A DNA stretch of 34,533 nt from an uncultured Coriobacteriia bacterium (GTDB lineage Bacteria > Actinomycetota > Coriobacteriia > Coriobacteriales > QAMH01), in assembly GCA_949879855.1 (NCBI GenBank), contig CATLBX010000006.1, forward strand, positions 1 through 34,533, read 5' to 3'. Below, piece by piece: positions 1,968 to 23,567 of the stretch. The position numbers and the translations under genes were made by a program. Every line of letters starts with the position of its first letter. Position 1 is the stretch's first letter. The notes beneath the pieces were generated by a model, which had not been told where the DNA came from, did no database searches, and was given only the letters and a program-made list of their open reading frames with translations.

Positions 1968-3089
1968 TTAGCGTTCTTTCTTATCGAGCAGGTATTCCCT
2001 GAATCCTGGCAACGCAAACGTGAAGACTCCAGGCTCCTGCTCCTCTATGACACCTGCTTCAAGAAGACGCTTCTTATAGGTGGAGATGTAGCTCGTCGTT
2101 TTCCCGAGCCTTTGCATGAGGTTATCACGCGTCGTGTACCCGTCATCATCGAGCATCGCGACGAGAAACGCCCTATCCCCTTTTGAAAGCTCGGCATAGG
2201 TTGAATCGAAGATGCGGCGCGACAGCTCTTCACGGGCAAGTCTGGCGCCTGTCGTCACGTCATCTTTCGTGATGGCACCCCCGCGCGCGATGTTCCACGC
2301 GCGATACCCCACGAGCTGGAACATGAAGGGGAAGCCACCAATCTCGCGCACGGCAACATCGAGTGCGTCCTGCTCGACGATGCGACCTCCCTCTTCGGCT
2401 GTCAGGCGAAACGCCTCCTCGACCTCATCGTCGAAAAGGCCCCCGAGGTCATACTGGGACGCACGACGAAGAAATGACGTCACCTTACCCGATAGCAACG
2501 CCGATACGTTGTGGGGAAGGCCCGCCATGAGCAAGGCGACTTTCCTGTCTTCCCGAATAAAGTGCTGGTATGTCGTCACGAGCTGAATCATCTCGTCCAG
2601 GCTTGGGTCCACTTCGTCGACGGTGATGAGCAAGCCCGTTCCCTCTTCGCCCAGCTCGTTGAGTATCGCGTTCATGCGAGATCGCCAATTGGGTGCTTCG
2701 CCGGACTCGTTCTCCCACGAAACGGCACCAATCCCCGCCACCTCGACGCCTGTCAGCTTCCGCTTCCCTTCTGGAGCAAGCAAATGCGCTGCCGCCTCTT
2801 TGCTGCGCTGCACGATGTCCTCGAGCATGCCTGGCGTTGCCGTAACATTCGCGGCAACCCAGCCCAAGCGTGAGGCCTCGTCGCTTAGGTACGAGAGCAT
2901 CGCCGTCTTTCCCGTGCCGCGAGCACCCACGAAGATGGTGCACAGGTTGGGATTGCCGCTCCCCTCATCGAACGCACGCGCCATCTCGCTGATGACGTCT
3001 TGCCTGCCTGCCATATACGCAGGCACTCGTCCAAATTCTGGCGTGAAGGGATTCTTAGTTATACGAGATGCAAGTTGTTTGTCGGGCAT
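1968..3089 (-). CDS. AAA (AAA_16/Orc1-Cdc6-like) ATP-binding protein with C-terminal winged-helix-like region, paralog 1
   Basis: NPFTPEFGRVPAYMAGR N-terminus, Walker A GARGTGKT, Walker B LLITVDEVDP, C-terminal TTRDNLMQRLGKTTSYISTYKKRLLEAGVIEEQ (wHTH-like). Clearly paralogous to 17893-18984. Confidence 0.85.
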   Translation of the reverse strand: MPDKQLASRITKNPFTPEFGRVPAYMAGRQDVISEMARAFDEGSGNPNLCTIFVGARGTGKTAMLSYLSDEASRLGWVAANVTATPGMLEDIVQRSKEAAAHLLAPEGKRKLTGVEVAGIGAVSWENESGEAPNWRSRMNAILNELGEEGTGLLITVDEVDPSLDEMIQLVTTYQHFIREDRKVALLMAGLPHNVSALLSGKVTSFLRRASQYDLGGLFDDEVEEAFRLTAEEGGRIVEQDALDVAVREIGGFPFMFQLVGYRAWNIARGGAITKDDVTTGARLAREELSRRIFDSTYAELSKGDRAFLVAMLDDDGYTTRDNLMQRLGKTTSYISTYKKRLLEAGVIEEQEPGVFTFALPGFREYLLDKKER

Positions 3090-3131
3090 GGTTACTCCCT
3101 ACCTAGCTTGTCGTCCTCATTATAGTTTTAA

Positions 3132-3200
3132 TTTCTTTGATTCTCCTTGATTTCTTTGATTCTCCTTGATTTCTTTGATTCTCCTTGATTTCTTTGATTT
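3132..3200. repeat. Tandem 19-bp repeat (tttctttgattctccttga, about 3.6 copies), equivalent to seven TTGATT words spaced 10/9/10/9/10/9 bp
   Basis: TTGATT starts at 3137, 3147, 3156, 3166, 3175, 3185, 3194. Array begins 43 bp upstream of the ATPase 1 start codon. Confidence 0.97.
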
Positions 3201-3237
3201 ACAAGGTCAGGGGGTTATGACCGGAGAGGACAACGAA

Positions 3238-3266
3238 AAAGCAGGCAGTTGAAACTACCTGCTTGG
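3238..3266 (-). terminator. Probable rho-independent terminator (minus strand)
   Basis: Minus strand AGCAGGTAGTTTCAACTGCCTGCTTTTT: hairpin with one G.U pair followed by a T-run; lies downstream of the 3385-3750 gene. Confidence 0.65.
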
Positions 3267-3384
3267 TTAGCGAGATTTCTCAATTTCGATGCTTTGAGTC
3301 TCAAGGTGAAATACTGACGGAGATTATCTAGATGCCAAATAGTTGACCAAATGCCTCACGCTGTCTAACCATGCCTGCGCAATC

Positions 3385-3750
3385 TCAGTCCTTCGTATAT
3401 TCGGACTCATCCGCAGGACTCTTCGATGAGTGGCACCAGACAATAGTCGGCGTATCCTCGTCTGGCAGTTCATCATTATCTTCGTCGCCCAAAGCCATTG
3501 TTGCCGTTTCTTTGCACATCAGCTGAGCTTTTGCCTCTTCTGCCTCAGCAGCCTTCTTTGATTGATACCTATCCCAGAGATAATTGACGAGCCAAAGGAA
3601 CCCACAACTAGCCCCTGTTGCAACAGCACCACCTATTGCCCCAGTTTTTATTCCATCGACCCTAGCGGCATCCTCTATTTTTTTCACGTACGCTTCGGGA
3701 CCTCCGGCTTCTTTAGCATTATGAGAAAGTTCTGCGTAAGGCCAGTCCAT
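3385..3750 (-). CDS. Small hypothetical membrane protein
   Basis: MDWPYAELSHNAKEAGGPEAYVKKIEDAARVDGIKTGAIGGAVATGASCGFLWLVNYLWDRYQSKK...; AGGGA RBS before the internal ATG (3748-3750); one predicted TM segment and an acidic C-tail. Confidence 0.7.
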   Translation of the reverse strand: MDWPYAELSHNAKEAGGPEAYVKKIEDAARVDGIKTGAIGGAVATGASCGFLWLVNYLWDRYQSKKAAEAEEAKAQLMCKETATMALGDEDNDELPDEDTPTIVWCHSSKSPADESEYTKD

Positions 3751-3861
3751 TGTTTTTCCCTTCATTACGCGAGGCATCGGTTTAAGTCCTTGCTCAAGCC
3801 ATTCCTAACTTGCAAACACTTGGGATTGCCTGCTTATAACCTGATAAATCGCAAGTGTTTG

Positions 3862-4833
3862 TTATCCAGTAAATCTGTTTGAGCAGGCCGTGCCACGCAT
3901 GCGAACAGTCGCATCTGGTTTTGCCATAGAATCTGGAAGCCATCCGGCAACCAATTTTGCTTTAGATTTAGGATCGATAGAGTCAGTAGAGTAGTTTCTT
4001 GTAACTGCAATCAAGTTATCGTCTGCATCATACATTCCAACAAGGAATATCACGTATTCCGCCTTTTTGTCATATGGGTTCTCTACAATTGCTTCAGGCG
4101 CGAATCTTCCTGATCCAGAACGCGTCACTTCGCCCACATCGAGAGCATCTTTATCGCCCACCACGGCTCTCGTGTAATCGACGTTTACTCTGATTTCCGC
4201 AACTTCATCCTCCCGAGTTACCGGAGTGACAAACCCAGAATACGTATCAAGCCCGTAGTTGATTTTCGATTCCGCAAGAAATTTTGGTGCATACACAACC
4301 GTGTCTGTGCCAGCAACTCTAATACCATTCCCATCGAAATACTGAAATTCAATTTCATTAATATTAATTGGGACATTTGATCTATTTTCAATACTGCAAT
4401 AGCCCAGGAGCTCAAAATTTTCTGCAAAGCTATTTTTGTAGACGTAGAACCCCTTCTGTATTTCTAGGGGGTTTAAAAAAAGCGTAAATGCAATCTTTGC
4501 TTCATTATTCGCTTTGTCCTTTACCGTAAGCTCAACATCGTAGTTTCCGAATTCACCGGTATTGACAGAACCCGTCTCAGAATCATAAATATATTCGTCA
4601 CAGCTAACAGCATACTCAAGCTCATTGAGCTGATATTCGGCTACGCCATCATCTGTTTCATCCGTTATCACAACGTTATCAGCTATGTAGTTATCTAGAT
4701 TGAAGTCCGTGCCACACATAACTTCAACATGCTTCTTATCAAGCCCCTCAACTGTTGGGGGCTTAGTATCACACCCCATTAGCACAAAACACGCTATAAC
4801 TGAGGCAAAACAAAGCACAAGCGTCTTTTTCAT
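3862..4833 (-). CDS. Putative lipoprotein with Ig-like/DUF5011-like N-terminal region
   Basis: MKKTLVLCFASVIACFVLMGCDTKPP signal peptide with lipobox LMGC; GGAGG RBS upstream; GEFGNYDVELTVKDKANNEAKIAFTL resembles bacterial Ig-like/cadherin-type repeats. Confidence 0.8.
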   Translation of the reverse strand: MKKTLVLCFASVIACFVLMGCDTKPPTVEGLDKKHVEVMCGTDFNLDNYIADNVVITDETDDGVAEYQLNELEYAVSCDEYIYDSETGSVNTGEFGNYDVELTVKDKANNEAKIAFTLFLNPLEIQKGFYVYKNSFAENFELLGYCSIENRSNVPININEIEFQYFDGNGIRVAGTDTVVYAPKFLAESKINYGLDTYSGFVTPVTREDEVAEIRVNVDYTRAVVGDKDALDVGEVTRSGSGRFAPEAIVENPYDKKAEYVIFLVGMYDADDNLIAVTRNYSTDSIDPKSKAKLVAGWLPDSMAKPDATVRMRGTACSNRFTG

Positions 4834-4927
4834 TTGCTGCCTCCATCTCGTCACCCGATAACATGCTTTATTCGCACGGCTTCATATATGAAGCCATTTA
4901 GGGCAGTCTAGCACATAGGCTTAGGCA

Positions 4928-5143
4928 ATGAATGCCACGGAAAAACGACTGGCCCTTGGGTCCGCTATTAAAGCCCGGCGAGAGGAGCAGGGGCTCTCGC
5001 AAGCGCGCCTCGCCCTCATGATTGGCAGCAGCAAATCCCACATCTGGCGTATCGAAACCGGCAGGGTGAGCGTGGGACTTGACGACCTTGGTCGCATTGC
5101 CGATGCGCTAGGCATCAGCGTGAAGTCACTCGTCGAATTCTAG
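4928..5143 (+). CDS. XRE-family helix-turn-helix protein (71 aa)
   Basis: KARREEQGLSQARLALMIGSSKSHIWRIETGRVSVGLDDLGRIADALGISVKSLVEF: canonical HTH_3 pattern. Confidence 0.92.
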   Translation: MNATEKRLALGSAIKARREEQGLSQARLALMIGSSKSHIWRIETGRVSVGLDDLGRIADALGISVKSLVEF

Positions 5144-6574
5144 TGAGTACGATACCGTTACCCTCTCTATCCCCGTGTATGCTTCGGCTTCGGCTTCGGC
5201 TTCCGCTTCCGCATCCATCTGCTGCACATATTCGCGCGTCATCTTCTCCACGAGACACTGCTCTTCCTCGCTCGCCCACCGGGCCTCGGGTGGATTGGCA
5301 AAAGCGCATGCGTAGTGATCCTCAATCCAAGAACAGAAGGAACGTGCATATTTTTCATCACTCGTTCTCTCATGCCAATCTTTTATTCCAGAACCCTGTT
5401 CTTCAAACAGTATCCATTCGAAACGTAAGTTGAGCGCTTCGGCCCATTCCCCAATGCGCCTTTCAATCTGTTCACGTCCGCTCTCGATAAGCCAGCGATT
5501 CAAACTTCCTCCGACGTGGGCCTCAACTAACTGCTTTGCCGTCTCTAGAGCTGGGCCATCTATGGCATAGAGTTCATCGAGGCATAGATAGCGACCGAGA
5601 TTCTCATCCAGAGCAACATCTTCCAGAAGGTCGAATACCTCATCGCTTATTTTGACGAATTCCTTTGCTTGCTCTTCAGAAAGTTCAACATCTGCGAGAT
5701 GGGAATGACATCCAGATTCGGCAATGAGGGCACGGAGCACCTTCGCCGCTTTCTGCACACATTCCAATGAAAGGTCATCGTCGGCGAACCAGTAGAAGTC
5801 CGCGAGAATGTCCTCGAGGCACCTGAGCGTACCTGACGCCCAGGCAAGGAGAAACGCTGTTGCCATTTTCTCGCTTAGCTCGATGTTAAAGGGCTTGCTG
5901 GCGTTCTCCTCGTCGAGGGCAAGGTCCTGGAACACCTCGGAGAATACGAGCATCTGGCCCACCGTGGGCCATCCAAATGGTTTGCTCCACGCATCGCAAA
6001 AACGAGCAATCTGGAGCTTTATCGTTTTCCAGTCCGCATCCTGCGGCAACTGCGCGAAACCGAGAAACGCCCCTTCCAACTCGCGGCTGAGCTGTTCAAC
6101 ATCCTGTTCGGTATGACTGCGTGCCCACCGAAGCACCTGCATGAGGCTCTCGTTTTTCTCATAGGCAGACACCAGCGCGTCCACATTCGTGATGCCATCG
6201 AATTCGTCCATGAGCGCGGCGGGCTCGATTACCTCGAGCGCTTTCGACAGCTCTATCTGCCTCTGTATGAGAGCATAGTCCTCCTTGAGCTCGTTCGTGC
6301 GCGCCGCGACAAGCACGGATCGCTCCGATTCGGGAGCAGCTAGGATTTCCTTGATCTGGTCTATGCCAAATCCGAGCCTGCGATACAACAGGATCTCATG
6401 TATGAGCTGAACGTCGTCGTCAGAGTACAGCTTACGGTTGTTCGCGACGTCATGCCCCGTCCGCTTCGCAACGAGGAGTCCCTCCCTGTCCCAGTTTTTG
6501 AGCTTCGCGGGCGTGGCGCCGGTAAGCTTGCACACCTGCGACACCGTAAGCAGCTTGTCGTTTTCTTCGGCCAT
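5126..6574 (-). CDS. MerR-family regulator with large uncharacterised C-terminal region (482 aa)
   Basis: LLTVSQVCKLTGATPAKLKNWDREGLLVAKRTGHDVANNRKLYSDDDVQLIHEILLYRRLGFGIDQIKEIL is a MerR-type wHTH; C-terminus contains an (AE)n tract. Confidence 0.85.
   Translation of the reverse strand: MAEENDKLLTVSQVCKLTGATPAKLKNWDREGLLVAKRTGHDVANNRKLYSDDDVQLIHEILLYRRLGFGIDQIKEILAAPESERSVLVAARTNELKEDYALIQRQIELSKALEVIEPAALMDEFDGITNVDALVSAYEKNESLMQVLRWARSHTEQDVEQLSRELEGAFLGFAQLPQDADWKTIKLQIARFCDAWSKPFGWPTVGQMLVFSEVFQDLALDEENASKPFNIELSEKMATAFLLAWASGTLRCLEDILADFYWFADDDLSLECVQKAAKVLRALIAESGCHSHLADVELSEEQAKEFVKISDEVFDLLEDVALDENLGRYLCLDELYAIDGPALETAKQLVEAHVGGSLNRWLIESGREQIERRIGEWAEALNLRFEWILFEEQGSGIKDWHERTSDEKYARSFCSWIEDHYACAFANPPEARWASEEEQCLVEKMTREYVQQMDAEAEAEAEAEAYTGIERVTVSYSLEFDE
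5181..5216. repeat. Hexanucleotide microsatellite (gcttcg/gcttcc, about 6 units) coding for the (Ala-Glu)n tract of the MerR protein
   Basis: gcttcg gcttcg gcttcg gcttcc gcttcc gcatcc read directly. Confidence 0.9.
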
Positions 6575-6636
6575 GTCTCACCTCCTCGCATGAGCACTCT
6601 AAACCCGGACACTATGTCCAGGTCAAGGAAAAGGAC

Positions 6637-17844: not shown

Positions 17845-17876
17845 TGAGACGAGCGGTGCCTGGGGTGCTTGTCTCG
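17845..17876. repeat. TGAGAC(A/G)A...TTGTCTC(A/G) element, divergent single copy
   Basis: tgagacgagcggtgcctggggtgcttgtctcg, just past the 3' end of ATPase 2. Confidence 0.75.
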
Positions 17877-17892
17877 TTGCGGCATCGCACGC

Positions 17893-18984
17893 TTACTCGT
17901 TATGCTCCAGATACTCTTTGAAGAAAGGCAGTTCGAATGCGACTTGCCCACGGGCAGGCCTACCCACAATGCCCGCGTTCATCAAGCGCGATACGTATTG
18001 CCCGACTTGAGCTGGTGACCATTTCAACCGCTCTGCAAGATCAGAAACACGACTAGGTTCATGGTCTTCAAGCATTGCGCGGGCAAGCGCAATGTCATTA
18101 TTTGATAGCTCCCGATATGTAGCCCCGAGAACGCGCTCATTCATTTCCATCATGGCCAAATCAATTCCAAGTTGGATGTCATTGGCTGATATGCGTTCTT
18201 CTGCGGGATTCGCATCCCATGCCTGGAAACCAATCAGTTGCATTAAAAAAGGAAAGCCTCCAATAGCAGTGATTGCGTCGTGGAGGTCGCGACGTTCAAC
18301 GCTTCTTCCAGAGGTTTCAATCATTCTTAGCATCGCCGATTCAACTTCGTAATCCGGAATTGGCCCCAAACTAACTTGTCGTGCTCGACGAAGAAAAGAT
18401 ACTGTCTTGTCATTGAGAAGGCTAGATACACGGTATGGGAGGCCCGCGAGCATAAGCGCAACCTTTCGGCCTTCCCCCACAAAATGCTGATAAACCGCAA
18501 CAAGCTCTCGGAGCTCATCGAGATTCGGATCGAGTTCGTCCACAGTTATGAGAAGGCCCGTGCCTTTCTCCTGTAGCTGGGACAATAGGGTGTCCATACG
18601 CCAGCGCCAATTACTGGCCGGGGCGTTTTCCCTCCCAATCTGAACCTCCAGTATCTGAGGAATGCCAATGCCGGAAACATGGCCTCCCAACTCCTTGCCA
18701 ACGAGGTGCTCAGATTTGCGATTAGCTCCGATTTCCAAATCTGAAAGCATTCCCGGAAGCGCTGTTGTGCCAACCGTTATCCATCCGTTTTGCTCAGCCA
18801 AATTCGCCGCTTCGAGAAGCATTGTTGTCTTGCCTGTGCCTCGTGCTCCAGAAATAAGAAGTGTCAATTCCGGACGGCGTGTTTCGCTTTGAAAGGCACG
18901 CCGGAGACTCTCGAGCAGTTGGGACCTTCCGGCAAGAATAGTGGGGGTTTCGCCAAATCCAGGAGTGAAGGGGTTGGTAGTCAT
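17893..18984 (-). CDS. AAA (AAA_16/Orc1-Cdc6-like) ATP-binding protein with C-terminal winged-helix-like region, paralog 2
   Basis: MTTNPFTPGFGETPTILAGRSQLLESLRRAF; Walker A GARGTGKT; Walker B LLITVDELDP; wHTH-like SRVSDLAERLKWSPAQVGQYVSRLMNAGIVGRP. Confidence 0.85.
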   Translation of the reverse strand: MTTNPFTPGFGETPTILAGRSQLLESLRRAFQSETRRPELTLLISGARGTGKTTMLLEAANLAEQNGWITVGTTALPGMLSDLEIGANRKSEHLVGKELGGHVSGIGIPQILEVQIGRENAPASNWRWRMDTLLSQLQEKGTGLLITVDELDPNLDELRELVAVYQHFVGEGRKVALMLAGLPYRVSSLLNDKTVSFLRRARQVSLGPIPDYEVESAMLRMIETSGRSVERRDLHDAITAIGGFPFLMQLIGFQAWDANPAEERISANDIQLGIDLAMMEMNERVLGATYRELSNNDIALARAMLEDHEPSRVSDLAERLKWSPAQVGQYVSRLMNAGIVGRPARGQVAFELPFFKEYLEHNE

Positions 18985-19004
18985 CGCTTGTTCCCGTTCT
19001 GTGC

Positions 19005-19064
19005 CTATTAGAAACTATTAAAAGTTATTAAAATCTATTAAAAGTATTATGTCTATTAATAAAG
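19005..19064. repeat. Phased array of TATTA words (10-bp units ctattaaaag/ttattaaaat) upstream of ATPase 2
   Basis: TATTA starts at 19006, 19016, 19026, 19036, 19045, 19054 (spacing 10/10/10/9/9); begins 22 bp from the start codon. Confidence 0.93.
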
Positions 19065-19145
19065 TTTTTTAATGCTCGGTTTAATAATTTTGATTATTGC
19101 AGCGCACGGGCATGTTGAAATATCAGTAAAACAAACCGGGATGAT

Positions 19146-19156
19146 CCCCCCCCCCC
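19146..19156. repeat. Poly-C homopolymer (C11)
   Basis: Direct read: gat-ccccccccccc-ggcc. Confidence 0.9.
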
Positions 19157-19266
19157 GGCCCTTCGCTGTTGATAGTTCGCGAACGCGGCTACTTCATAGT
19201 AGCTACATACCAGCCATGTCCCCGCCCCACCATCTGACTGAGACGAGACTATTATGCTCAGTGAGT

Positions 19267-20301
19267 CTATTTTAGACTGCGGGCTTGAGAAAGCAGTCGT
19301 GCATTTATGCCGACAAGAGCGCCCTCATATATATGAAAGGGCAAGGGCAAATCATGGCGATCCTTGTAGAACTTCATCTGCGAAAGCAAAGTTGTCGCTA
19401 GCGCGGTCTGCTGCAAACAGATTGAAGAAACTTCTTGAGAATATGCCATTCGATTCACAGTGTCGAAGCACTTGTCTATATTCCTGCTAATTAAATCAGT
19501 GTCGCTCCGTACTTCCACCAGCGCATCATAGAGAAGGTGCTGGTTATTTTGAATCGCATGCAGGGCCTGCAAAGCTTGTTCTGAATTATCAATCAAGCGG
19601 TCCAATCGGACTTCAAGCTCATATTGATTGTAGGCTTCGCCAAGCTCGGAAAATCTACCCGAGTCAAAATACTCATATAGCTGACAAACAGCTGGAAGCG
19701 ATTGATATTTTCTGTATATTGGACCATCGGAATAGTACTCATAAAGCATTCGCTCGCACACTGCCTTGAGCTCGCTGATTGGCAACGAACCAGATTGGAA
19801 ATCTGCAGTTGTTTCTGCATCAATTTTTTTCTCTTGGGCAATGTCAGATTCCCATTTCTCCTTTGCCGATTTATTTTCCCTTTTTTTCGCTTCACTTTTT
19901 CTCATGCTATTCGATGCACCTATTTCCCATGAAATCAATGCTCCTATGCCCGCGCCAATGGCTGCACATATGACAGCCGCAATGGCAAAAACAAAAAAGT
20001 TTCCAAGCCATACGATTGAGTTATCGCTCGTTTCAACGATCTGCCATTCGCTAATAAACTCAAAAGCGAACCCTATAATTCCGCCAATCACAGCACCAAT
20101 ATTTCTTGCGCTTAAATCGGCTTTGGCTTTTTCTCGCTCAATATTCGCATTGGGTGGTTTGAAATCGGGATACTCCTTGTTTTCCATTTGGAGAATCCTG
20201 CAATTAACGTGCTTTTCCAGCTCGTCCAATTTCATGAGCATGACTTCGAGGTCACGCGCGGTCTTTAGATATTCGAGTATCTCATCTTTGTCGTTTTTCA
20301 A
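19267..20301 (-). CDS. Hypothetical membrane protein with glycine-zipper-like TM helices and coiled-coil regions (344 aa)
   Basis: IGAVIGGIIGFAFEFI and FFVFAIAAVICAAIGAGIGALISWEIGA TM segments; soluble helical C-terminal region. Confidence 0.75.
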   Translation of the reverse strand: MKNDKDEILEYLKTARDLEVMLMKLDELEKHVNCRILQMENKEYPDFKPPNANIEREKAKADLSARNIGAVIGGIIGFAFEFISEWQIVETSDNSIVWLGNFFVFAIAAVICAAIGAGIGALISWEIGASNSMRKSEAKKRENKSAKEKWESDIAQEKKIDAETTADFQSGSLPISELKAVCERMLYEYYSDGPIYRKYQSLPAVCQLYEYFDSGRFSELGEAYNQYELEVRLDRLIDNSEQALQALHAIQNNQHLLYDALVEVRSDTDLISRNIDKCFDTVNRMAYSQEVSSICLQQTALATTLLSQMKFYKDRHDLPLPFHIYEGALVGINARLLSQARSLK

Positions 20302-20407
20302 ATGAGGTCTCCGATAATGCCTATAACCATATGAAACTCGATACAGTCAGTAATGTGAGAGTAAAACTCACGCGAATGATATGGATTTATTCAATGGGAG
20401 CGAATAT

Positions 20408-20521
20408 TTACTTCGCTTTGCCTGATCCCCCACAATTAGGACAAGTAGTGAACTTCTCACCATCAGCTGTTTTTACCCTTACGAGGCCTTTCCCGTTACA
20501 GCGGGGACAATTATTGGCCAT
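20408..20521 (-). CDS. 37-aa mini-protein with two CxxCxGxG (DnaJ-type zinc-ribbon) motifs
   Basis: Minus translation MANNCPRCNGKGLVRVKTADGEKFTTCPNCGGSGKAK*; GGAGAGGAATGAACA-ATG RBS. Below the ORF-track size cutoff. Confidence 0.72.
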   Translation of the reverse strand: MANNCPRCNGKGLVRVKTADGEKFTTCPNCGGSGKAK

Positions 20522-20623
20522 TGTTCATTCCTCTCCTGAAAGCCGTCATGAATTAGGCGGTACTTGTGCTACCTTGATTAGGAACCCGGGCAAAGAAGCT
20601 TAAGCTTCGCTGGTTCAACTAAT

Positions 20624-20809
20624 TTATTTTCCAGCGCAATACATCATGCACTTGCAGCCACAGGGAGTACCAGGCTGCGCACTGTAAGGCTGACAGATAG
20701 TGCCGCAGGGCGCCATGCCAGCATTATGTGACATCTGTACGGCGGCCATAGATATAAAGCCAGATGATCTACCGGCACCTATGTCCAAACCTTCTCGAAT
20801 AACTGTCAT
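20624..20809 (-). CDS. Cys-rich RiPP precursor-like peptide (61 aa)
   Basis: MTVIREGLDIGAGRSSGFISMAAVQMSHNAGMAPCGTICQPYSAQPGTPCGCKCMMYCAGK; all six Cys in the C-terminal 29 residues; AAAGGA RBS; directly upstream of (co-directional with) the rSAM gene. Confidence 0.8.
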   Translation of the reverse strand: MTVIREGLDIGAGRSSGFISMAAVQMSHNAGMAPCGTICQPYSAQPGTPCGCKCMMYCAGK

Positions 20810-20827
20810 TGCCAATCCTTTCTCTCG

Positions 20828-22120
20828 TTAGAATGATCTATCAATATGGGATTTACACCCCAAGAGATAGCCTGCTGCGTCAACAATTGCATCCGTGATG
20901 AATGCAATATGCGGACAACGCTTTAATCCGAAGTTCAGTGTCTCGGCGGCATAGCACCCAGCTTGGCAGCTCGGCAAAAACACGCACTTTCGACATTTTG
21001 CGGGAATATTCGGGGATGCCCATTCAACCATAGCCTCGTTAAACAAAACGCCTTCAAATACGTTCCCGATCCGCTGTCTGCCCTCAGTTAGCAGATGCTC
21101 GCACTTAAATACGTCTCCTGAAGGGTCAATTACAAAGTTGTTAATCATCTGAGCCGAGCATGTAGCGTTGTTGAAATTCAGTGGAAGCCCATCGACTGTC
21201 TGAATAAAGCCCGCATCAATCATTGCGTAAAATACGCTCTTGTATATTTCGCTCAGGTCATCTTCCGTGAAAAAGTCTTCTTGATTGCCGCTTCCGTACA
21301 GCGGAGCAGCATAAAGCATCACCGTGTCCAGCCCCTTGTATCTCTCTCCAAGAAGAGGAATTAGATTCAGGCAGTCTCGATAATTCCTTCTATCAATATT
21401 CAGGCGTATTAGAAGTTTGGCACCTTGCTCGACGAATGCATCCATAGCCAAAAGCACGCTATCAAAAGTCACGTCTTTCGAAATATACGCCTTCCTCCGC
21501 AAGTGCTCTTCAGCCAACCCATCCAAAGTGACTTGAGCCTGAGAAACTCTGCAATCGTGAACAAGCAGACGAACGACATCGGCTGTTGCCAAAGTTGCAT
21601 TTGTAATAATGTCAGACGTATATCCAATGCCGTGTTTCTCCGACATGTCTATAATCTGATTCGAAAGTTCGTAAATCCGATCAATCTCGAGCATAGGTTC
21701 GCCACCGAACCATGTTACGTGTACGTTGTCAACCATGCCCATGTAGCTCTCGATGAAAGACGGAATCGCCTTTGCGACCGCATCCTTCATGCAAACGGCT
21801 TTGTAAGACTGTTCATAACAGTAAAAGCAGCGTGCATTACAGGCTGTTGTTGGCAATATCTGGAAACCGGCAAATCGTGTCGAGTAATTGTTCATGCGCT
21901 GAATAGCTAAGACTTTCTCAATCTCGTCTTCTTCTGCAGGTACGACAAACCCATTCTCCATAGCCATGCGCAGCAGATCAGGATCTACGAACTCGCAGCT
22001 CTTAATCTGCTTGTATTCTGATCTTTCAATTACGGCGACAGCTGAAGTAACCAGGTTATATAAAAACACCTGGTCAACAATCATGCCGGAATGGTTATAT
22101 CTTGACGCCTTGTAATTCAT
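20828..22120 (-). CDS. Radical SAM/SPASM domain peptide maturase
   Basis: LPTTACNARCFYCYEQ (CxxxCxxC), TWFGGEPML, C-terminal Cys set CSAQMINNFVIDPSGDVFKCEHL...CRKCVFLPSCQAGCYA...CPH. Confidence 0.93.
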   Translation of the reverse strand: MNYKASRYNHSGMIVDQVFLYNLVTSAVAVIERSEYKQIKSCEFVDPDLLRMAMENGFVVPAEEDEIEKVLAIQRMNNYSTRFAGFQILPTTACNARCFYCYEQSYKAVCMKDAVAKAIPSFIESYMGMVDNVHVTWFGGEPMLEIDRIYELSNQIIDMSEKHGIGYTSDIITNATLATADVVRLLVHDCRVSQAQVTLDGLAEEHLRRKAYISKDVTFDSVLLAMDAFVEQGAKLLIRLNIDRRNYRDCLNLIPLLGERYKGLDTVMLYAAPLYGSGNQEDFFTEDDLSEIYKSVFYAMIDAGFIQTVDGLPLNFNNATCSAQMINNFVIDPSGDVFKCEHLLTEGRQRIGNVFEGVLFNEAMVEWASPNIPAKCRKCVFLPSCQAGCYAAETLNFGLKRCPHIAFITDAIVDAAGYLLGCKSHIDRSF

Positions 22121-22231
22121 TCGTTTGGGCTTTCGTTTTTGTTTCCGACGATAGTCCTACAGCTTCCCTCTTCTCACCTAAATGCTGCATTTCATGTTTT
22201 CGTACCGGCCGTTTAGCACAGTTAAAGCCAA

Positions 22232-22717
22232 TTACTCTGCCCAACTCTCGATTACCTGTTGAATCGTTTGAAGCAGGGCGCCGTAGTACATGCCTTCTTC
22301 CTCGACAGCATTCTGATCTGTCACCGCTTTCTGCAAGGCGCCTGTAATCGAGAACATACCCTTGCTTTCAGCAGAGTTCATGCGTTGCATTGCAGAGGAA
22401 GGGGTGCCTTGCTGCACGACATCTATTGCCAGAATTCCTGCGTTTTTATTTATTCCCACCAGATAACGCGCCCAGTCAGCATGATCAGGAAAAGAAAATT
22501 CGACGCCCGGGAAAACTTTACTGTTCAGGAGCCCGCCAATGGTGATATCAGTTTTGGAGGCGTCTACGGTGATGCCATACTGGTTCCCCATGGATTCCTT
22601 AACATCATTGGCTAAGCTCTCCGCAAGAGCATCTTGATTAATATCAGCGGCACCGCCGAAATTTGTACCCCATTGATGGAACGGATTCTGCGAGAGTGGT
22701 TTCTTGAATTTCGGCAT
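22232..22717 (-). CDS. Hypothetical protein (161 aa), first gene of the rSAM cassette
   Basis: MPKFKKPLSQNPFHQWGTNFGGAADINQDALAESLANDVKESMGNQYGITVDASK...; AAAGGA RBS; same strand as rSAM and precursor. Confidence 0.75.
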   Translation of the reverse strand: MPKFKKPLSQNPFHQWGTNFGGAADINQDALAESLANDVKESMGNQYGITVDASKTDITIGGLLNSKVFPGVEFSFPDHADWARYLVGINKNAGILAIDVVQQGTPSSAMQRMNSAESKGMFSITGALQKAVTDQNAVEEEGMYYGALLQTIQQVIESWAE

Positions 22718-22771
22718 TTCTAATCCTTTCAGGTCATGCAGTAAACCCGATACTCTGGGTCAAAAAGGCAA

Positions 22772-22806
22772 GCTATATATTTATAGAAACGCTATAAATA
22801 TATAGC
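22772..22806. promoter_or_regulatory. Perfect palindromic candidate operator (15-5-15)
   Basis: gctatatatttatag-aaacg-ctataaatatatagc; abuts a minus-strand TATAAT (22808-22813) with TTGCAA (22829-22834) upstream. Confidence 0.8.
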
Positions 22807-22978
22807 AATTATAAATCATCATCAAGGTTTGCAAATAAAAAGGGATATATTTAAGTGCGATTATTAGCTGGTTTTCTTATCAAATAATAACCAATTTTTT
22901 ATGACGCTATTTATATTATGTGGATTAGTAATTGCTATTCAGATTACATCGACATTCCTACCTTCCAAGGAGCTGTCG

Positions 22979-23443
22979 ATGGATATCCGGAAGACGTTTG
23001 CAAACAATATAAGGGAATACCGCAAAGCCACGGGGTTAACCCAAGAGGGGCTTGCAGAATTGAGCGGCCTACATAGAACTTATATTGGAGGTATTGAGCA
23101 GGGCCGTATAAATGTTAGCTTAAACAACGTATCGAAAATTGCCGAGGCCCTCAACATTAGCCCATCTTTGCTGTTTATGAATCCCGCTGGTTCTGCAGCT
23201 GAAGTAGTTAAGAACATAAACGGCGAAGATAATTGTGCCCTGACTTACTACGCTCTTTGCAAATTCAGAGAAAACGAAGCCACTGTTCAACCACTAAACA
23301 TGGTTGATGTAGATATTGATACGCAAATTCTCTACTCTCTCATTCGCGATGGTGTAGACGACACCGAGGAGCTTGCTCAAAAGATGAAAACCACTCGGCT
23401 GCGCATACTCGATTATTTAAGTAATCACTGCCGTACAAGCTAA
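22979..23443 (+). CDS. XRE-family transcriptional regulator with C-terminal extension, divergent from the rSAM cassette
   Basis: MDIRKTFANNIREYRKATGLTQEGLAELSGLHRTYIGGIEQGRINVSLNNVSKIAEALNISPSLLF; AAGGAG RBS before the ATG at 22979. Confidence 0.9.
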   Translation: MDIRKTFANNIREYRKATGLTQEGLAELSGLHRTYIGGIEQGRINVSLNNVSKIAEALNISPSLLFMNPAGSAAEVVKNINGEDNCALTYYALCKFRENEATVQPLNMVDVDIDTQILYSLIRDGVDDTEELAQKMKTTRLRILDYLSNHCRTS

Positions 23444-23520
23444 GCAGAGGCCCTTCCGTTATGCGATCCTGCAGTCGTCTCAACCAAAATGATACAGGGC
23501 CTTGACACGCGACCTGTCGT

Positions 23521-23564
23521 GAGGTTCCTCAGCTCCGCTTCGGCGCGCTCGGGGTAACAAGACA
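23521..23564. repeat. Divergent copy of the GAGRTTYCTC...GACA dispersed repeat, 3' of proB
   Basis: gaggttcctcagctccgcttcggcgcgctcggggtaacaagaca. Confidence 0.55.
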
Positions 23565-23567
23565 GAG

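Follow-up and report, generated by a model that had tools for sequence, protein, structure and literature searches.

Genes of a family of AAA+ ATPases with a C-terminal wHTH domain, members of which occur in 200 of 401 Coriobacteriia genomes, are frequently preceded by an array of one short word, repeated in a single orientation every 9 or 10 bp, and this word covaries with the predicted recognition helix of the protein encoded behind it. In the genomes tested the arrays are nearly restricted to genes of this family, and their copy number changes in units of 19 bp. We consider it probable that each of these ATPases is a self-addressed autoregulator that would act through its own array. The starting point was a stretch of 34,533 nucleotides from an uncultured Coriobacteriia bacterium (hereafter the window), which carries two members of the family.

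Two ATPase genes and their arrays

The relevant features of the window are as follows.

1968..3089, minus strand: ATPase 1 (P0001, 373 aa), AAA+ domain and C-terminal wHTH
3095..3100, minus strand: putative Shine-Dalgarno-like AGGGAG, read directly from the sequence
3119..3124, minus strand: candidate -10 element TATAAT, by consensus match only, 3 bp past the last (degenerate) word
3127..3200, minus strand: phased array of seven exact AATCAA words and one degenerate word, alternating 9/10 steps, 19-bp unit (from the sequence, TRF and the chain score)
1969..6635: accessory block with ATPase 1 at its left edge, absent from the sister genome G006
17893..18984, minus strand: ATPase 2 (P0002, 363 aa), a paralog 43% identical to P0001
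19005..19065, minus strand: array of ATPase 2, TTTAATA-type words, mostly with a 10-bp period
17848..23564: second accessory block, its left edge occupied by ATPase 2; missing at the corresponding position of G006

On the plus strand, exact TTGATT words start at 3137, 3147, 3156, 3166, 3175, 3185 and 3194 (spacing 10/9/10/9/10/9), precisely where an earlier sequence-only reading of this DNA had placed seven of them ahead of ATPase 1; read on the minus strand, which encodes the ATPase, the word is AATCAA. A degenerate eighth copy, TTAATT (3128-3133; AATTAA on the minus strand), stays in phase on the gene-ward side and extends the chain to eight. TRF describes it as a perfect repeat with a 19-bp period (100% matches over 3.6 copies) and gives it a score of 138, the best of any tandem array within the window; the basic unit is therefore a pair of words, with spacings of 9 and 10 bp. 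Its chain score was attained by none of 40 dinucleotide shuffles. In the bacterium's own genome of 1.87 Mb, a pattern of three AATCAA words has a single site, namely this array, and the reversed control pattern gave 0 matches. The start codon of ATPase 1, read from the sequence, is the ATG at 3087-3089 on the minus strand. No good -35 element precedes the candidate -10, and the array occupies that place.

The second array that had been reported, at ATPase 2, is equally real, with TTTAATA words in a 10-bp period at about 19006-19060, and it is the sole site of its kind in the genome. A run of about 10 C residues, possibly a slippage-prone tract, lies upstream of it (19147-19157). A third, more distant paralog is encoded on another contig of the same genome, where no clear upstream array was found; at this locus (L003, 300-1316) it adjoins a gene rich in repeats that resemble the leucine-rich surface-protein repeats of the BspA type (Phe-Asp-Thr-Ser..Val-Thr-Asn-Met).

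In both accessory blocks of the window the ATPase is the first gene from the left. The sister genome G006 is about 97% identical to the window beside both loci and has neither ATPase; its junctions connect 1968 to 6636 with about 20 bp between them, and 17847 to 23565 with 14 bp between them. Neither a recombinase nor replicon parts were recognised in either block.

Enrichment and geometry of the arrays across the family

The enrichment of arrays was assessed in 139 distinct members from Coriobacteriia, using the 160 bp that precede the conserved NPFTP motif and scoring the longest chain of one 6-mer with one mismatch allowed and steps of 9-11 bp (cut-off for an array: at least 3.6). The cut-off is reached by 57.6% of the members, compared with 0.24% among 1250 control windows placed in the same loci, so the enrichment that the sequence-only reading had proposed to look for is present; 97 of the 139 members outscore all of their 40 dinucleotide shuffles. 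About 40% of the members have no array under the chain score. Some of these alternate two different words (e.g. L139), and the figure of 58% is thus a lower bound. A further control comprised the upstream regions of 331 other genes, located in the window or in 20-kb stretches sampled from the same genomes. Four of them score at least 3, and three of these are ATPase arrays seen from the side of a divergent neighbour, as their words (TTCGCC, TTTTGC and TTTGCC) are those of ATPase arrays in reverse complement; once they are set aside, one promoter in 331 remains.

The geometry of the arrays is strict. Steps measure 9 or 10 bp in 417 of 419 cases (10 bp in 233, 9 bp in 184, 11 bp in 2), and the arrays with at least four words divide into an alternating 9/10 class (42), strict 10 (23), strict 9 (10) and others (11). 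Chains built with steps of 3-8, 12-17 or 21-23 bp gave no signal, and steps of 18-20 bp showed the double period. The words differ widely among members (AATCAA, TTTAATA, TGCAAAA, GGCGAA, CTTAGA, GTGAAA, TTGAAT and others), which bears out the earlier proposal that the conserved feature is the geometry. Orthologues that are 90-93% identical keep the word GGCGAA in 2, 4 or 6 copies (L137, L116 and L122/L130, respectively), as would be expected if units of 19 bp are gained and lost. Slippage in 19-bp units seems to alter the copy number. Neutral low-complexity or slippage repeats as the origin of the arrays were rejected: the steps are just 9 or 10 bp, the other step sets are empty, and other promoters are poor in arrays.

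Outside Coriobacteriia, inspection by eye revealed arrays in front of some plasmid-borne members (TGCRAA in L231, TTTAGA in L234 and TATAAAC in L236). Some members of the NPYAPGAG subfamily from Actinomycetes (L218, L222 and L226) have no tandem array upstream; instead, CTTAT..ATAAG words in inverted arrangement lie close to a start that is likely leaderless.

Genome-wide searches with the words themselves returned few sites. In 401 genomes the three-word TGCAAA pattern turned up at 16 separate sites; at 11 of them a family gene follows directly, and in each of these cases array and gene have the same orientation. Behind another (L181, about 1500-1640) only a C-terminal remnant of a family protein was found, by a weak profile match, and this is an array that outlived the internal deletion of its gene. 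The site in L182 resembles it by eye, and two more of the 16 are located elsewhere. In L178 (about 1500-1625; genome G264) the phased TGCAAA array stands before an AbrB-like gene with no ATPase detectable nearby; it is possible that it was co-opted or orphaned. Across 251 genomes of the order, AATCAA arrays were found in the window and at four more sites, none of which has a family gene and three of which belong to a single genome, so that AATCAA alone is less diagnostic than TGCAAA. One locus with three AATCAA words at about 10-bp spacing (L276, about 1500) has them shortly 5' of a gene that reads as argG (argininosuccinate synthase), and no family gene was found within that locus.

Words and recognition helices

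The relationship between word and protein was examined in 74 non-redundant members that have arrays. Similarity of the words correlates with identity of the recognition helices when identity of the AAA domains is taken into account (partial rank correlation 0.29, permutation p = 0.0005); conversely, words correlate with AAA-domain identity at 0.15 after removal of the helix. At 35-60% identity of the AAA domains, the mean word similarity rises with helix identity from 0.35 to 0.75. An unselected scan of 297 alignment columns ranked residues 333 and 334 of P0001 as the best two, and these lie at the start of the recognition helix, which is predicted to span residues 332-345 of the C-terminal wHTH. 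Members with NY at these two positions mostly have TGCAAAA or TGCGAA, and those with RY have GGCGAA or GGCAAA; SY (of the STYKKRL type) goes with AATCAA or AAGTCAA, GH with (G)CTAA(A), NN with GTGAAA or GGGAAA, TN with ATGAAT or GTGAAT, SQ with CTTAGA or TTTAGA, and AQ with TTTAATA or CTTAGA. Exceptions exist; nonetheless, NY or RY is paired with GCAA or GCGA in 28 of 35 members, as opposed to 2 of 50 others. Covariation of the word with the recognition helix, as anticipated from the window alone, is thus seen in the partial correlation and in columns 333/334, but independent changes on the tree are few: on a tree of the AAA domain only, helix and word changed together about 1.6 times and discordantly 0 times, too few to be significant, and shared ancestry may therefore contribute to the link.

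The word was also said to be private to each paralog. Within a genome this is the case, as paralogs have different words in 30 of 30 pairs, but the excess over what protein divergence predicts is not significant (p = 0.10), so active avoidance of shared words does not emerge from these pairs. Orthologues in different genomes have words in common.

The ATPase family

P0001 contains a Walker A motif GARGTGKT (residues 55-62), a Walker B motif LLITVDEVD and a GxP-like motif GGFPF. Residues G55, R57, G58, G60, K61, T62, D158, E159, G252 and F253 (numbering of ATPase 1) are invariant in the family; P254 is not, though Walker A, Walker B and the GxP motif are all present. The Pfam profile AAA_16 matches P0002 with 41.6 bits (gathering threshold 32.6) and P0001 with 29.3 bits, below that threshold, as is the match of nSTAND_NTPase5 (27.5 bits, threshold 34). 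No solved homologue of P0001 was found by sequence, and the profile gave chance-level matches only. An AF2 model of P0001, built from nine sequences and of moderate confidence (pLDDT 73), was compared with known structures by Foldseek. By TM-score the archaeal ATPases SSO1545 (2fna) and PABY2304 (2qen) come out on top (0.57 query, 0.60 target), and by E-value Cdc6/Orc1 proteins rank first (1fnn, 2qby and 2v1u), with moderate TM-scores of 0.42-0.48. The fold predicted for P0001 is AAA+ plus a C-terminal wHTH, which matches DNA-binding AAA+/wHTH proteins.

Up to ten family matches occur in one genome, fragments and genes with stop codons among them, and both annotated and ORF-scanned loci suggest that the family gene is usually solitary. 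More distant members are found in other Actinomycetota, and also on plasmids of Rhodococcus, Arthrobacter, Bifidobacterium breve and others. A known anti-phage defence system was considered and rejected, as the PADLOC-DB models match neither P0001 nor P0002. A phage origin was likewise rejected: there was just one weak phage record, a PHROG of unknown function.

Proposed mode of action and alternative explanations

The position of the arrays relative to their genes falls into two types. Among 51 members with longer leaders, 18 have an array that ends 1-21 bp upstream of a strong -10 element; over all 87 arrays, 18 end before a strong -10 and 5.7 are expected, and some of these are TGGGTATACT extended -10 elements. 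On the other hand, no more than 25 bp separate the array from the start codon in 35 of 86 cases, and several arrays reach into the Shine-Dalgarno sequence. In either position an oligomer bound to the array would cover the core promoter or the leader, which points to autoregulation.

In the mechanism that we propose, the C-terminal winged helix would read the word of 6-7 bp, and protomers would line up in a head-to-tail row along the array that immediately precedes the gene encoding them, each occupying a single 9- or 10-bp word, so that in the alternating class a 19-bp unit would hold two; clamping and release of the protomers may depend on the nucleotide state of the AAA+ domain. By covering the -35/-10 region or the ribosome-binding region, the oligomer would set the expression of the ATPase itself. 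Repression of the own promoter seems the likelier sign of this control; it is possible that the protein acts as an activator replacing the -35 element where an extended -10 follows. The words would drift along with the recognition helix, giving each paralog a separate address. A family of self-addressed ATPases had already been suggested by the sequence-only reading, and enrichment and covariation now support it; binding of the array by the protein stays a prediction.

It is conceivable, yet rather unlikely, that the ATPase controls a regulon as conventional transcription factors do; its own array would then be the strongest among many sites, and the rest would be single or double words. Autoregulating wHTH regulators often have regulons. 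BldC has many targets (PMC5859096), and rare arrays do occur at non-ATPase genes, as in L178 and L276. However, the genome of the window has no second three-word array for either of its two words, and the 331 other promoters are nearly empty of arrays, though single words are too short to judge.

We regard it as distinctly improbable that the ATPase is a Cdc6/Orc1-like initiator or a segregation factor, with the array as the origin or centromere of a formerly independent replicon. The E-value ranking of the fold search, the occurrence of the family on actinobacterial plasmids and the location of both window copies in accessory blocks would agree with such a role. In haloarchaea and Sulfolobus the boxes have diversified and each origin specifically depends on the Orc1/Cdc6 initiator whose gene adjoins it (PMC3936714, PMC3528665), and the family resembles these proteins in combining AAA+ with a C-terminal wHTH, in having several paralogs per genome and in pairing each gene with a private site. 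However, the layout of the site differs: the family has tandem arrays with 9-10 bp steps in a single orientation, at promoter or start-codon distance, rather than inverted boxes flanking an AT-rich unwinding region. Besides, as many as ten matches, some of them broken, share a chromosome, the blocks of the window lack replicon parts, and P0001 is far from the curated cut-off of the Orc1/Cdc6 profile TIGR02928 (19.3 versus 181.3 bits).

An element of the leader RNA, acting in the mRNA (e.g. on translation) where the array abuts the Shine-Dalgarno sequence, would be consistent with the fixed orientation and with the 35 arrays close to the start codon; we consider it very improbable, since the 18 arrays upstream of a good -10, that of ATPase 1 among them, are outside the transcript. 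Finally, phased A-tracts bend DNA, and intrinsic curvature or an UP-like promoter element without a specific protein reader would suit a period near the helical turn, but this is scarcely credible: A4/T4 is present in at least 75% of the repeats for 29 of 87 arrays and in at most 25% for 37, both window arrays included, counts on which A-tract curvature as the sole cause was rejected, and, moreover, the words covary with the recognition helix and other promoters are nearly devoid of arrays.

Relation to known systems

The closest parallel to the arrays themselves is BldC, whose subunits sit head to tail on direct repeats of 9 bp (PMC5859096). Like BldC sites, the family arrays are made of direct repeats that share one orientation, measure about 9-10 bp and vary in copy number; unlike the ATPases, BldC is a pleiotropic protein of 68 residues that has a MerR-like wHTH and lacks an ATPase domain, and it is not known to be related to them in sequence. 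We know of no BldC paralog family with private words. SSO1545 and PABY2304 share the overall AAA+/winged-helix build, but are only 12% identical in sequence to P0001, and no association with arrays is known to us for their group. MraZ boxes, ParR/parC and Rep iterons are tandem direct repeats upstream of the respective gene and serve in autoregulation; the folds of these proteins are unrelated to that of the ATPases, and paralog-private words are, to our knowledge, not on record for them. Open-licence PMC papers yielded nothing on the family or on arrays in Coriobacteriia, and as far as we found in that literature the link between the ATPases and private upstream arrays is undescribed. The earlier remark that no named system matches agrees with this result, but it has to be qualified by the close analogues, i.e. 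Cdc6 with its origin boxes and BldC.

The arrays tie a large family of solitary ATPases without an assigned function, from sequence alone, to the probable DNA target of each member. With a predicted target for every member, the function of the ATPases becomes testable, and the natural library of protein/word pairs could be used to derive and test a recognition code for the wHTH and to ask how paralogs stay insulated from each other. More tentatively, the family might represent a so far undescribed class of self-addressed AAA+ proteins, built of solitary, fast-turning-over units of one ATPase and its private array, where a short motif of the recognition helix would set the word as a readable address code, the array length would be tuned in 19-bp steps, and an ATP-gated helical filament on the array would be the working state, be it for control, maintenance or defence.

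Two minor observations concern the remaining content of the accessory blocks. The right part of each contains a gene for an XRE-type HTH protein on the plus strand (4928-5143 and 22901-23443). In the second block, the segment 20331-22120 has a radical SAM protein (20828-22120) next to small cysteine-rich reading frames, which together look like a RiPP maturation locus.
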